From NCBI GenBank assembly GCA_025094145.1, contig JALLLS010000006.1, forward strand, positions 186,001 to 250,000: a stretch of DNA of 64,000 nucleotides. The letters run 5' to 3'. Position numbers and translations under genes: made by a program. The notes below the pieces were generated by a model. The model was given only the letters and a program-made list of their open reading frames with translations, was not told the DNA's origin and did no database searches. Every line of letters starts with the position of its first letter. Within the stretch, counting starts at the first letter, position 1. Origin of the DNA: Spinellus fusiger. Lineage: Eukaryota > Mucoromycota > Mucoromycetes > Mucorales > Phycomycetaceae. Of this stretch, positions 11,651-24,229 are shown piece after piece.

Positions 11651-13429
11651 TCAGTGGGAATGAATAGAGTACTTACCAACTTTATCTTTTAATCGGTTGG
11701 GTTGACATGTTGTGCTGCAGTACCACGGTGTGTCTAGGAACATCTTTGACTCAATGACTGGAGATTGGCAAGATTGATGGTAGGCCCGTGAACAGCCTCC
11801 TTCACAAGACACCAGGGTATTGTTAGGGAAGGACGATGAAGAGTGACATACAAGACAGAACTCTTGAACAACAGGACATTGACGGTCCTTTATCGATTCA
11901 TTCACAAAGGCAGATAAATCAAGACGAGGCATACGACTCACTAACCCATACCCTTTGTAGTCACACCCATGTTTGCTAGGGATCATTATTATTGTCCATA
12001 CAGGGGGGGAGGGGGAAAGAATAGGGGAAAGTAGAACCAAAAGAATGAGATAATTGCACCAAGAGTCAACAATCCCCATTTCTACTGCTACCATTTTTAT
12101 TTTTATTTTTATTTTTATTTGTACTTACTTGCATAGTGTTCGTTTCCCCCATGGACCAGGCCGCCAATTCACACTCTCGGTTGTCCCACAGTATCTACAC
12201 CAATTGATGCCCAGGTGTATTAGACGATCGAATACTGTTGGCCTCTGACTTTTTCTCTTGTGCTTTGGTAGTAAGGAACTGTCCAAGGAGACTGGCAGGT
12301 GGTTATGGTGGAGAAGAAGGGTAGCGTCTGTCTTTTTGACAGGGCGTGATCGGTGATTCAACGAGTCCGACACACTGACTTTATAAACTTGCTCCTGATG
12401 ATCGCTGTCAATGGAAGAATAGCGTCTGCGCTTCAGGGATTCTGTAGGCGGAGTACAAGTGTAAGGTGGCATGCAATTTTCATCACTGCTATGTGTACTC
12501 TCATCATCGCATGCTGTTTCTGAGGGTGTTGGTAAATCACACAGCAAATGGTCAGAGGTCGTGGTAGCGTCACCAAAGTGGTCCACAAGAGCCGACCACT
12601 CTAGTTCGGGTGAGTGATCGCTCTCAAATGCATTGTCACTGTTACTCAGAGAGTTGGCATGTTCAGTTTGAAGTAGTACAGGAAGACTCTCATTATGATG
12701 GATGGGGATTGAGAGTGTAAGAGATTTCTCCTCCTCCTCCTCTTCTTCTGCTTTTTCTTCTTCTGCTTCTAAGAAGGTAGAAAAGGGAATGTCTTCCAGG
12801 CCTTCAAAGAGAGGCTCATGATCATAGAGAAGACCCGATGGAGAAGTGACAGGGGACAGGTGAGGGGTGGAGGTCCACAGCCGCTTGTTTGAAATCTTTT
12901 TGTCAGAGTCAATAATAGGAGATGCTGCAGGAAAAGGGAGAGGAGCCTGTTCTGATAAGGAATTACATATCAGTTCATGCGTAAAAGAGAATTCCTGAGA
13001 TAGAAATATATCATCTTTAAGAAGAAAGTAGGATAGAGAAGAGGCCCAAATCATAGAAGAAGAAAATAGGTTGTTTGAGAGTGATGGCAGATCGATGCTC
13101 ATGGAGAGTATCTGCATACTTCTTAGCCTGCACTCGTGACATACACCTGATCCTAACAAGTGCGGTCTCTCAAGCACGTCTCCGCTCCAAGTCTCCTCTA
13201 GCAAACTATAGGAAGACAGGTGATTCTCAAGAGAACGACATCCTTTGCAACTAAATGGCAGCACATTTGGCTGAAGGAACTCATGTGTCAATAGATTTGG
13301 CAGTGGTGAGAGGGATTCTAGTAGGCATTTATCAGAGACTGAAAGGACAACAGACTGTGTAGCCCTCCAACAGGATGAAGATTTCATGACGACAGATGAG
13401 AATATGGGCTTGGAGAAGAGAAGAAACAA
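11651..13429 (-). CDS. GATA-like zinc finger plus PHD finger protein
   Basis: Probable nuclear chromatin or transcription regulator. The long first exon (12132-13429) has two CxxC pairs (CKGC and CHEC, near residues 63 and 105), an acidic Ser/Thr-rich middle (EEEKAEEEEEEEKS), an LKRRRYSS basic patch, and then WCRYCGTTESVNWRPGPWGK at its end. The AA/C junction continues it to LCNKHGCDYKGYG. The finger is therefore CX2C-X18-CX4C, longer in the last knuckle than a canonical GATA finger (LCNACG). The second exon adds a PHD finger: FCLVCHSS, CEGGC, YHQSC, WYCSTTC. A GTAAGT donor follows RLKDKVG near 11670, so the true C-terminus lies further down and is unresolved. Start is the first ATG at 13429; a later Met (VVMKSSS) is possible. 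Specific orthology not assigned. Confidence 0.75.
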
Positions 13430-14385
13430 AACCCTTCCACTCTGTTAGCATAATAAGTCCATAAGTACCCCAAAAGGGGATGACCAATAAATGCAAAAAG
13501 AAAGTTGTTTTATTTGCTCATGACTTTCTTTTTATACTTTTATTTCATAGTGGAGTCACACTCTATGCAATTGCAATCTATGAAAGCAGGCAAGAGTATG
13601 TCCTTTATATAGACATGGACTAGGCAGTGTGCTATCTTCTGCATAACAAGATCAAATAAGATACACTTTATTAATTTATTAGATAGTTTGTTTGTATTAT
13701 GGTCTTCTATCGGCCAGTAAACCAAAGGCTCGAGTGATACATGGGGAGAAGGAAGGATAAACCAATAGGCTTATTCTTCTTGGTTCTAGTAGTATCTTGC
13801 TAAATAGATGATATTTAGTTTATAGAAAATAGATAGAAATACAATAAGAAAGAAAGAAAGAGTCTTTAGTAGTATTGAATAAGTATCAGCTACTATTCAA
13901 CTTGTATGCTATCTTTTATATTTTTATTCTACTCTAATTGTTACTACAAATAAAAGAGTTTTACAATTAAAAAAAAAGAAACATACACATTCTAATGCAG
14001 TCTATTACACTTTCATACTATAAAAGATATATCCATTACATTCAAATACACTGCATCTTATTATAAATACCTCATCACAGACATCATTTTGTAGATGTTT
14101 TCTTTTTTATATACGATTTACTAATTGTTAGTTTCTCGTTCTTTTAATAAATAAATAATGTATAAATAAATGTGGCTGTAGTGGACTGCTGATAGACTGA
14201 AGAAAGTCATTTCTTAACTTTATTATTACTTATAATAACATTATCAGTGATATCATTACTAATATTGCTATCATCATCCCTCATCTTTTCTTATTATGCC
14301 AGACAGCAGCAGGACTGTGATTCTAATTTCTTGGCTGATTTATTTACTTACTATTTTTCTTTTCTTTTTTCTTTTTCTTTTTTTT
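13430..14385. other. AT-rich gap, no gene recognised
   Basis: About 950 bases with AAAG and ATAAATA simple sequence and short ORFs only. It contains the promoter side of the GATA/PHD gene and the 3' flank of the WKF gene. Confidence 0.5.
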
Positions 14386-20962: not shown

Positions 20963-23900
20963 TTATAGAGAAGACATCTCTGCAACACCAGCTCCCTTGA
21001 TTTGGGGCACACCCACTTTACTCTTTTGATAAGCAAGTACACCTCTTATTTTGATCTAGTAGACAATAAGCACACCTAGAGTAAATGCTTATCCACTTAC
21101 CCTCCCACCCAGCAACCCTACACAGTGACTCTGAGGCCCTGATAATCCCTTGAGTGCCTTTGTTGCTGCCTCTGCTATTGGCTGTAATGCCTGAATCCTG
21201 TTGGCACACAGAGGACAGGCGTACTTGGCCTCTTCATCATCACACAGGCTCTGATATTTGTTAGGCGTCAATGTCTCATCACACTTTGTATGAATCCAGT
21301 GGTCGCATACATCACACGCCACCATCTCCCCGTCTTCCTCCTCATTTCCATCTCCCTCTGTAAAGGTCTTTAAGCATACAGGACAAAACCTATGCTGATC
21401 AAAATGACCATGACATGGACGGCAATACGTGGCCAAGTAAGCAACTTTGGAATAGGTGTCTGTAGGAGGTGCTATGGCATCACTGTAGTGACTAGGATCG
21501 CTGTGTTGATGGTCATTGCAGCTATGACATTCTGCACACAGTTTACAGAGCCATGCACCTAATCAATGGAGATGAGTAAGATATACTATTCCGTCTATCT
21601 GTTTGTCTGTCTGTTTGTTTTTTAGGCTGTTTGTCTGTCCGTTCTTATTACCTTCAGGCACACTGCTTATTTCAGGCACACAACTATGACATAAAGAATA
21701 GAAGAGATGAATGGTGATGGAAGTAGGTGTAGTTCTCTATGCTACTTTACCATCCAGTATGCCATCCCCTATCACAGCCATCACAGATCATTAATGTAGA
21801 TTCATCTCCTACTTGCTGACATACACTACACACTTTGCAGTCAGGACAGGACCATGGATAAGACTCTGCTGTTATTATTTGGCGTGGAGTAGTGAGATGG
21901 ACACAGACAGGGTGGTATTGATGTGTGCATTTGGCACATACAATCATAGTACTAGCATCGCATACTGGCATGTCTTGGGTTGCTAACAAGTCTTTTGAAG
22001 CCTCTGCTGCATGACAATCAAAACACAAAGGCAGATCTATCATGGGAGGGACCTGACAGAGGTAGGTGAGTCTTCTTCCTCCCCTTTTTTCTTTTTGTTT
22101 TTCCTTTCTTTATTATTCTAGAGTGGGATGAATACCTTGGAAGAAACCACTACTTTAATAGCTACTGTATGCTGTGGACATTTTTTACCAGGATAAAGTA
22201 CTGATTGTTGGCAGGGGCCTTTATGAGTTACCTCTCCACACACAGGCATACTTTGTACATGATGCATTGATTTCTAACAATCATAATAATAACCACAATG
22301 GTCTATGAGAGTGTATTACTCTGTGGCACTTACAAAGGAAAGAGAGGACTGTGTGGGTGGTGGTAAGGAGGGCTGTGCGGTTGGTGATGAGGAAGGCTGT
22401 GTGGGTGGTGGTAAGGAGGGCTGTGTGGGTAGTTGTATAGAGTGTGGTGCAGGTAATGGTAAAGAAGACTTTACAGAAGACTGCAAAGAAGACTGTACAG
22501 ATGAGTGGGCATGTGGGTGTGAATAGGAAGACATATAGGCCTGAGGATGATGTTGATAAGATGGATACATCGCTGGAGACATGTGCTGCACATGCTGCAT
22601 AGGTGGCATGTGTTGCATAGGTGCATAGTTATTAGATTCATAACTTATTGGTTGACTCATCGCTCGATACACTTGATTAAGATAGTATTGCTGAGTTACT
22701 GAAGACTGTGCTGCTGCAATCATGGTAGCAGGAGAAACCACCTTTGGTTTTGCACGGCCATACCGTAAGAAATCACTAATGCCATGATAAGTACAGCAAC
22801 AGCAACCCTATTTTTCTTCTTTTTTTTAGTGGAGATCACTTACACTGGGAATTCAGCCTGGTACTGTCCTTCCATAATAGCAATTGGATAACTCATGTCT
22901 TTGCAGTGCTGTGTTGAGTGTGTTCCCATAACAGACTCCATTGTATTGATGATATGGTTGACTTCTGTGCGCTCACTCTCAGACAGTGTGTTGAGTACTG
23001 TATGTCTAATAAGATCCTTGTCTAGTAAATACTGTCCAAAGCCATGCATGGGCTGTGCAGAAGAGACGTTAAAGGCAATAAGATCCACTTCTGTAGCATC
23101 CACAGGCTTCCATGTACATTGACTAGGCTGGTTGGCTTTTGCTATTTGACGAATATCTGTATGAATATCATAAAATATGGGCTTCTCTATACGTCTTTGA
23201 TGCAACTGAGCATTGAATCCTCTAACATCCATAGCAGCATGATGTAGCCATGTCGCACTATTCAAGAGTGCTTTCCCCTTGTAGATATCATCCCCAGAAG
23301 ATAGCTTGGAGAGAAGAGAACGTCTAGCCATGGGTTCGTCTTTCTCCTTTTCTCTCTCTTTCTCTCTCTTGTCCTCGCTCTCCTCCTCTGTGGGCTCCTG
23401 TTCTACTTCCATCTGTGTGTCTGTCTGATAGTGTCTAGCCTTAGATTCAAAGTAGTCATCTTTAAGGCGTCTTCCTCTTTTCACAATCCTAGATCCAAAA
23501 CACTTGAATACAGACCGAGCCGTTACCACAGCCACATCTCTGTTTCTAAACCATGTCACTAACAAACGCTCTTTGACCAAATACTGTTTCTCTTCTTCAC
23601 TAATGCGCACTCGTTCTAAAAGAGGGTTTTTGTGGAAGAATAGATAGCTGTCTCGATAACCAAGGGCCTTTGCTGGATCCATGGCTAGCATTAGCAGCTG
23701 TTCACCACGCAAGGGCAGTGTAAACGTAGACACAGCATATTTGCGCCCTTATAGCCCACAGCCCACAGTCGAAAAGTGAGCCACCCATACCAGATAGAGA
23801 TACAAATGCAAATCTTCCTCACCTTGTAGCAGATACCCGTGCCGATCTACTTTTTTCTCTCCTGCCTTGTCCACTTCACTTGCGCTGCTGTCTGCGTCTG

Positions 23901-24229
23901 ACTCTTCGGGCGTCTCTTCTCTTGGCCGCTTACGGTCTTCATTGGCTCTGGTACGCGTTCTGGACCGTGTGCGCCTTTTCAATTGCATAGACTGACTGCT
24001 TGTATCATTATCACTGGTGTCCATGGTTTCTCTTTCAAATTCATCGCTCTCATGGCCTCGTTCTGGCTGACGTCGCCGTGGTGGACGTCCTCTTCTTTTT
24101 CTAGGTATTGCTGTTTCTAGTGGAATAAGATCAATAATACATGCGTTAGTGGTGTATTATGTCTCCTGTCTAGACCCGTGTCTTGGTGGTTGGGTCAGTG
24201 TTCTTTGATAGATCACCTCGTGGACTCAT
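20963..24229 (-). CDS. Rsc7/Npl6-domain protein fused to three PHD-type fingers (891 aa)
   Basis: Probable subunit of a SWI/SNF-family (RSC/PBAF-like) remodeller. Nine exons: 24217-24229, 23823-24116, 22844-23747, 22334-22775, 22136-22273, 21751-22052, 21652-21683, 21101-21558, 20963-21055. Phases agree at all eight junctions and the total is 892 codons. Residues 1-102 are basic with an AT-hook (PRKRRGRPPRRR). Residues ~104-230 are the CRC_subunit domain of Rsc7/Swp82 (KYAVSTFTLPLRGEQLLML; NPLLERVRISEEEKQYLVKE; FKCFGSRIVKRGRRLKDDYF). Residues ~404-551 are Gln/Pro/Ser-rich. From ~600: a PHD-like finger (CFDC, CAKCTHQYHPVC), a canonical PHD (CSVCQQ, MICDGCDRGWHTGC, WLCKLC), and a third (FCPVC, VACDVCDHWIHTKC, YACPLC). 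The 3' end (QIKGAGVAEMSSL) is in phase. No start codon context or polyA-like break separates the two halves. Two separate genes remain possible but less likely. Confidence 0.83.

Follow-up and report, generated by a model that had tools for sequence, protein, structure and literature searches.

A CRC-domain gene with BAF45-like PHD fingers in Spinellus fusiger and its relation to yeast and animal accessory subunits of chromatin remodelers

The window analyzed here is a 64,000-nucleotide stretch of Spinellus fusiger DNA (GenBank assembly GCA_025094145.1, contig JALLLS010000006.1, positions 186,001 to 250,000). On its minus strand, at 20963..24229, a gene predicted to encode a SMARCG-type subunit was rebuilt with nine coding exons, 2676 coding bases, and 892 codons (891 amino acids plus the stop) in one frame, and all of its introns were GT...AG. 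An earlier note, made from the sequence alone, had also described nine exons in one frame with 892 codons, and the two junctions that it named between the halves of the protein (22334/22273 and 22136/22052) have the same coordinates in the rebuilt model. Its description of the donors between the halves as good and GTAAGT-type holds for one of the two linking introns, intron 4, since the intron 5 donor is GTATTC; GTAAGT was found at introns 3, 4, and 8. The tiny first exon (MSPR) has parallels in the MSPKE and MPPKE starts of homologues P0024 and P0007. The features of the gene are as follows.

20963..24229, minus strand: whole gene, predicted SMARCG (Rsc7/Swp82-BAF45) subunit with CRC, Req, DPF, and PHD3, 891 amino acids (gene model, Pfam, homologues)
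24229-24217, minus strand: exon 1, a 13-nt first coding exon encoding MSPR
23823..24116, minus strand: exon 2, charged N-terminus and beginning of the CRC domain
22844..23747, minus strand: exon 3, approximately residues 103-403, with the bulk of the CRC_subunit winged helix, the Req-like helix (~260-320), and the YPIAIMEGQYQ motif (~390)
22843-22776, minus strand: intron 3, donor GTAAGT
22334..22775, minus strand: exon 4, linker rich in Gln, Pro, and Ser that contains QQYYLNQVY
22274..22333, minus strand: intron 4, GTAAGT...TTAG, 60 bp, first join between the Rsc7 and PHD halves
22136..22273, minus strand: exon 5, Cys/His motif C-x5-KG-x-C...KC-x2-H
22053..22135, minus strand: intron 5, GTATTC...TCAG, 83 bp, the second intron linking the halves
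21751..22052, minus strand: exon 6, PHD1 and the initial portion of PHD2, together the tandem DPF pair
21683-21652, minus strand: exon 7, continuation of PHD2, which is completed at the beginning of exon 8
21101..21558, minus strand: exon 8, end of PHD2, then a third PHD finger (MLL1 PHD3-like) with the CDHWIH tryptophan
20963..21055, minus strand: exon 9, conserved C-terminal tail

The domain order of the protein is a charged N-terminus, CRC, a Req-like helix, YPIAIMEGQYQ, the Q/P/S-rich linker, the Cys/His motif, the DPF, the third PHD finger, and the conserved tail. In this single protein, Pfam placed CRC_subunit (PF08624) at residues 82-208 (E 4.4e-43; 147 bits against a cut-off of 25) along with three stretches of PHD (E 8e-17), and both the CRC domain and the tandem PHD pair (DPF) that characterize SMARCG subunits were present. 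The Req-like helix has the pattern W..HAA...RGFNAQL..RR...FYDIHT; the fungal stretch gave a profile match to the PHF10 Req (E 1e-9, Prob 96), which supplies the Req helix of SMARCG subunits. The DPF region matched DPF2 (3.5e-19) and PHF10 (2e-17), with a profile match to the PHF10 DPF at E 3.6e-19, and was nearest to DPF2, KMT2C, and MOZ. It retains the acyl-pocket tryptophan (YPW) and the CD.CDRG aspartates, which we take to be those of the acidic pocket, while leucine 413 of PHF10 is replaced by valine. The third PHD finger was nearest to PHD3 of MLL1, a reader of H3K4me3.

The Cys/His motif of exon 5 was seen in several relatives, but the Cunninghamella and Halteromyces rows of a ten-row alignment lacked it; no Pfam family was called over it in the window protein (E <= 1). 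In the exon 9 tail, RG...G.P.I.G was invariant in 10 aligned sequences. Weak Pfam matches, including Rad54_N, Cytochrom_C, and C1_1, were set aside.

Homologues were searched among 5.8 billion proteins, with 7983 candidates scored and 41 matches obtained. Only proteins of 0.55-1.75 times the query length were considered, so PHD-less forms are under-sampled. The CRC domain was found in 33 matches (P0001-P0033), 32 of them named, which by genus we take to be Mucoromycota, and one (P0020) unlabelled. A PHD finger was also listed in all of these Mucoromycota matches except P0033 (32 of 33), though the UniRef name of P0033 says PHD-type. The other matches were five CRC-only proteins (four named, Ascomycota by name, and one unlabelled) and three basidiomycete acetyltransferases with PHD and without CRC. 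The protein P0001 of Phycomyces nitens (797 amino acids) was 56% identical over 100% of residues 90-891.

The S. fusiger genome itself gave three CRC matches, on contigs C167, C117, and C154 (the last being the window). The C117 gene corresponds to GenBank protein P0013 of S. fusiger, whose seven exons were readable letter for letter with GT-AG introns; exons 1-2 fell outside the intron comparison because the P0013 model begins inside CRC. Six introns of this paralogue lie in the compared stretch, and five share phase with introns 3, 4, 6, 7, and 8, while intron 5 has a counterpart of another phase. Intron 4 sits in a poorly alignable part of the linker, 11 residues before the next Cys here and 10 in P0013.

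The earlier note had proposed one gene joining a CRC domain to BAF45-like PHD fingers, and this was borne out by the single predicted protein, the architecture of its homologues, and the shared introns. Two neighboring genes wrongly joined, a Rsc7-like gene ending near 22316 and a PHD-finger gene starting before 22052, would account for the stop that an unspliced reading meets at 22316, for the weaker GTATTC donor, and for the lack of a model of this very gene among the database matches. The two-gene model was nevertheless rejected as exceedingly improbable, because 32 of the 33 CRC-bearing Mucoromycota matches hold both domains in one predicted protein and introns are shared with the paralogue, including one in the linker that agrees in phase and almost in position. 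The linker residues Q432, Q433, and Y440 (motif QQYYLNQVY) were also invariant in 10 aligned sequences.

We consider it very probable that this gene, one of three CRC-domain genes of S. fusiger, codes for an accessory subunit of SMARCG type in a remodeler of the SWI/SNF or RSC kind, with the ancestral full domain set and the following mode of working. The Req-like helix would hold both SWIRM domains of Swi3/Rsc8 against the Snf5/Sfh1 repeats, like Npl6 in yeast RSC and PHF10/DPF2 in human PBAF/BAF, and the CRC winged helix would contact nucleosomal DNA. The DPF would recognize an H3 tail carrying acyl marks, and methylated H3K4 would probably be read by the third PHD finger; the subunit may therefore help to hold the remodeler on active promoters. 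For yeast, passages of Patel et al. (2019; PMC6959994) describe the SWIRM domains and the Sfh1 repeats as held by an Npl6 scaffold, and the Npl6 CRC as homologous to the SMARCB winged helix with likely DNA contact. For human PBAF, a passage of PMC9741621 has the PHF10 Req helix packing on SWIRM and on the RPT2 of SMARCB1, as the DPF2 Req helix does in BAF. Two results weigh against the assignment: the Pfam Req family (PF14051) was not called in this protein (best 0.042, in 2 of 61 relatives), and the gene had no database model among the 41 homologue-search matches.

The third CRC gene (C167:32500-40500) fits P0042 of S. fusiger (100% identity over 72% of the query) and had no PHD match on its contig, among at least 24 PHD matches genome-wide. 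Its search gave 206 matches, and each of the 120 listed has PF08624 and lacks PHD; the length limit applied would have kept out long PHD-bearing forms. Mucorales hold both classes, CRC+PHD proteins and widespread PHD-less CRC proteins. A survey of the architecture in other zygomycete-grade fungi had been suggested, and the CRC+PHD combination was found commonly in Mucorales; the description of the protein as a plausible intermediate was thus overstated. The protein seems to have retained the complete ancestral set rather than to stand midway between the two kinds.

The gene is confirmed, its architecture is already known from other early fungi, and it is in itself an ordinary family member. 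Passages of Hernandez-Garcia et al. (2022; PMC9170682) describe fungal proteins with CRC, Req, and PHD, including those of Rhizophagus irregularis and R. globosum (RiRsc7/RgRsc7, with CRC, Req, and tandem PHD in one protein), and conclude on a common origin of Swp82/Rsc7 and BAF45/PHF10/DPF, uniting metazoan, fungal, and plant SMARCG. Compared with RiRsc7/RgRsc7, the S. fusiger gene adds a new species and order, three PHD stretches were counted, and the Pfam Req was uncalled in its copy. The S. cerevisiae proteins Rsc7/Npl6 and Swp82 share the CRC, and Rsc7 also has the Req-like stretch; unlike the S. fusiger protein, they are without PHD fingers according to the same passages, where this absence appears exceptional among fungi and, in the discussion, extends to the rest of Dikarya. 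Arabidopsis TPF1/TPF2 are, by name in that source, also SMARCG with three PHD fingers, but differ from the S. fusiger protein in a Tudor-like C-terminus.

In human PHF10/BAF45A (and, by the literature, fly SAYP) a winged helix is likewise followed by a Req helix, the YPxAxxxGQxQ motif, and the DPF; the N-half of the S. fusiger protein appears to correspond piece by piece to animal PHF10, with its CRC in the place of the SAY winged helix, and the C-half to the double PHD of PHF10/DPF. Two PHD stretches were counted in one PHF10 against three here, and the HHEEE pattern given for acidic pocket 2 of PHF10 in a passage of PMC8538644 reads GDEST in the S. fusiger protein. Human DPF1-3 (BAF45B-D) share the DPF, and a passage of PMC9741621 gives them the Req helix; in a passage of PMC4509781 the SAY winged helix was not found in them. 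Their C2H2 finger (described in part of PMC3307773), between Req and DPF, sets them apart: no C2H2 family was called in the window protein (Pfam, E <= 1), whose corresponding stretch has the different Cys/His motif of exon 5, and the weak C2H2 family PF18112 (best 0.025) occurred in 6 of 61 relatives, its position within those proteins not seen.

The segment NPLLERVRISEEEKQYLVKE, likened by the earlier note to the SAY core, aligned with the PHF10 SAY core YPDLERRDLSHKEKLYLRE in a profile alignment. The N-half as a whole matched the PHF10 profile collinearly. Of the earlier interpretation overall, the one gene, the CRC with BAF45-like PHD fingers, and the SAY-core alignment stood, and the reading as an intermediate did not stand in full. 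In a Foldseek comparison with a structure library (214 chains ranked, 210 aligned), the predicted CRC fold was of the SMARCB1 winged helix type. Searched against 177,635 PDB sequences, the N-half profile found seven at E <= 10, namely three Rsc7-type (one with the name 'Nuclear localization protein'), two Swp82, and two PHF10 chains (2e-6, located at the PHF10 Req helix).

According to passages of PMC9170682, SAY is metazoan only and CRC is fungi-specific, as separate incorporations, and the likeness could then be convergence on a common DHD-like winged helix of several chromatin proteins. The winged helix alone scored against PHF10 near the shuffle maximum. For the whole N-stretch, in contrast, the score was 56.9 against a best of 19.9 in 60 shuffles, and in both proteins the domain stands in the same place ahead of the same Req helix and YPxAxxxGQxQ motif. 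SMARCB1 chains also ranked above Ski, SKI, and BCOR chains for the CRC model, and 10 of the 61 CRC proteins gave a sub-threshold PF21459 match (E <= 5). A genome-wide PF21459 search gave no match in S. fusiger, nor in the controls. Separate gains are therefore judged unlikely; the evidence argues against SAY and CRC as lineage-specific additions, without settling the matter. Instead, we lean toward CRC, which passages of PMC9170682 treat as distinct, being the SAY/SMARCB1 winged helix in the same place. The animal-fungal ancestor would then have had the winged helix, the Req helix, the YPxAxxxGQxQ motif, the DPF, and perhaps a third, H3K4-methyl-reading PHD shared with plant TPF, and PHF10, DPF, Rsc7, and Swp82 would be copies that each kept a different subset of these parts, and fungi may have lost PHD on two occasions. 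A limited search, covering parts of the literature, found no statement that CRC equals SAY.

A CRC tree was built with 92 rows and 125 columns. From 163 CRC-bearing rows, 31 were dropped for low domain coverage and 92 of the remaining 132 were chosen by hand, those left out being mostly unlabelled metagenome; the tree was without chytrid, Glomeromycotina, or basidiomycete rows, and row P0033 (Apophysomyces) bore a Dikarya label in error. In this under-resolved tree, with 27 of its 88 inner branches open, a 100/100 branch united the Mucoromycota genes with and without PHD and set them off from the sampled Dikarya rows, which would imply independent PHD loss in Mucoromycota and Dikarya. The two Mucoromycota classes were not paired with Swp82 and Rsc7 in the tree, which drew Sc_Swp82 and P0025 out on very long branches and separated Sc_Rsc7 from the remaining ascomycete Rsc7 sequences.

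An origin within Mucoromycota, through gene fusion or through transfer, would fit the fact that the named two-domain matches were all from presumed Mucoromycota, the remainder being CRC-only Ascomycota or PHD-only basidiomycete acetyltransferases, and that chytrids and Glomeromycotina were not among the matches listed in two homologue searches. This origin is nevertheless very unlikely: the same layout is reported for R. irregularis and R. globosum in passages of PMC9170682, the N-half is collinear with PHF10, and a fusion of two unrelated halves would leave the shared Req helix and motif unexplained. The simplest history would start from a single ancestral protein that had every part, with the PHD fingers later lost in S. 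cerevisiae Rsc7 and Swp82.

Two further features of the window were observed. A divergent plus-strand gene runs from 24662 onward, and its first exon has a weak resemblance to fumarylacetoacetase (N-terminal PF09298, E 0.031, short of the cut-off); the ATG codons of this gene and the SMARCG gene lie about 430 bp apart, and the two may share a promoter. At 11651-13444 on the minus strand, adjoining frames matched a PHD finger (E 3e-7) and, short of the cut-off, a GATA-type zinc finger (E 5e-4); these frames are perhaps exons of one GATA-PHD protein.

Accessory subunits steer SWI/SNF remodelers, and the yeast and animal sets long seemed unrelated at this position. They are most simply read, domain by domain, as one ancestral protein, and the S. 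fusiger gene adds to the case for tracing the yeast and animal subunits to a single ancient protein. If CRC is indeed SAY, the published scheme of lineage-specific gain would be revised, results on Npl6 in yeast RSC would apply directly to PHF10 and PBAF, and Mucorales would offer a fungal system for studying the full subunit.
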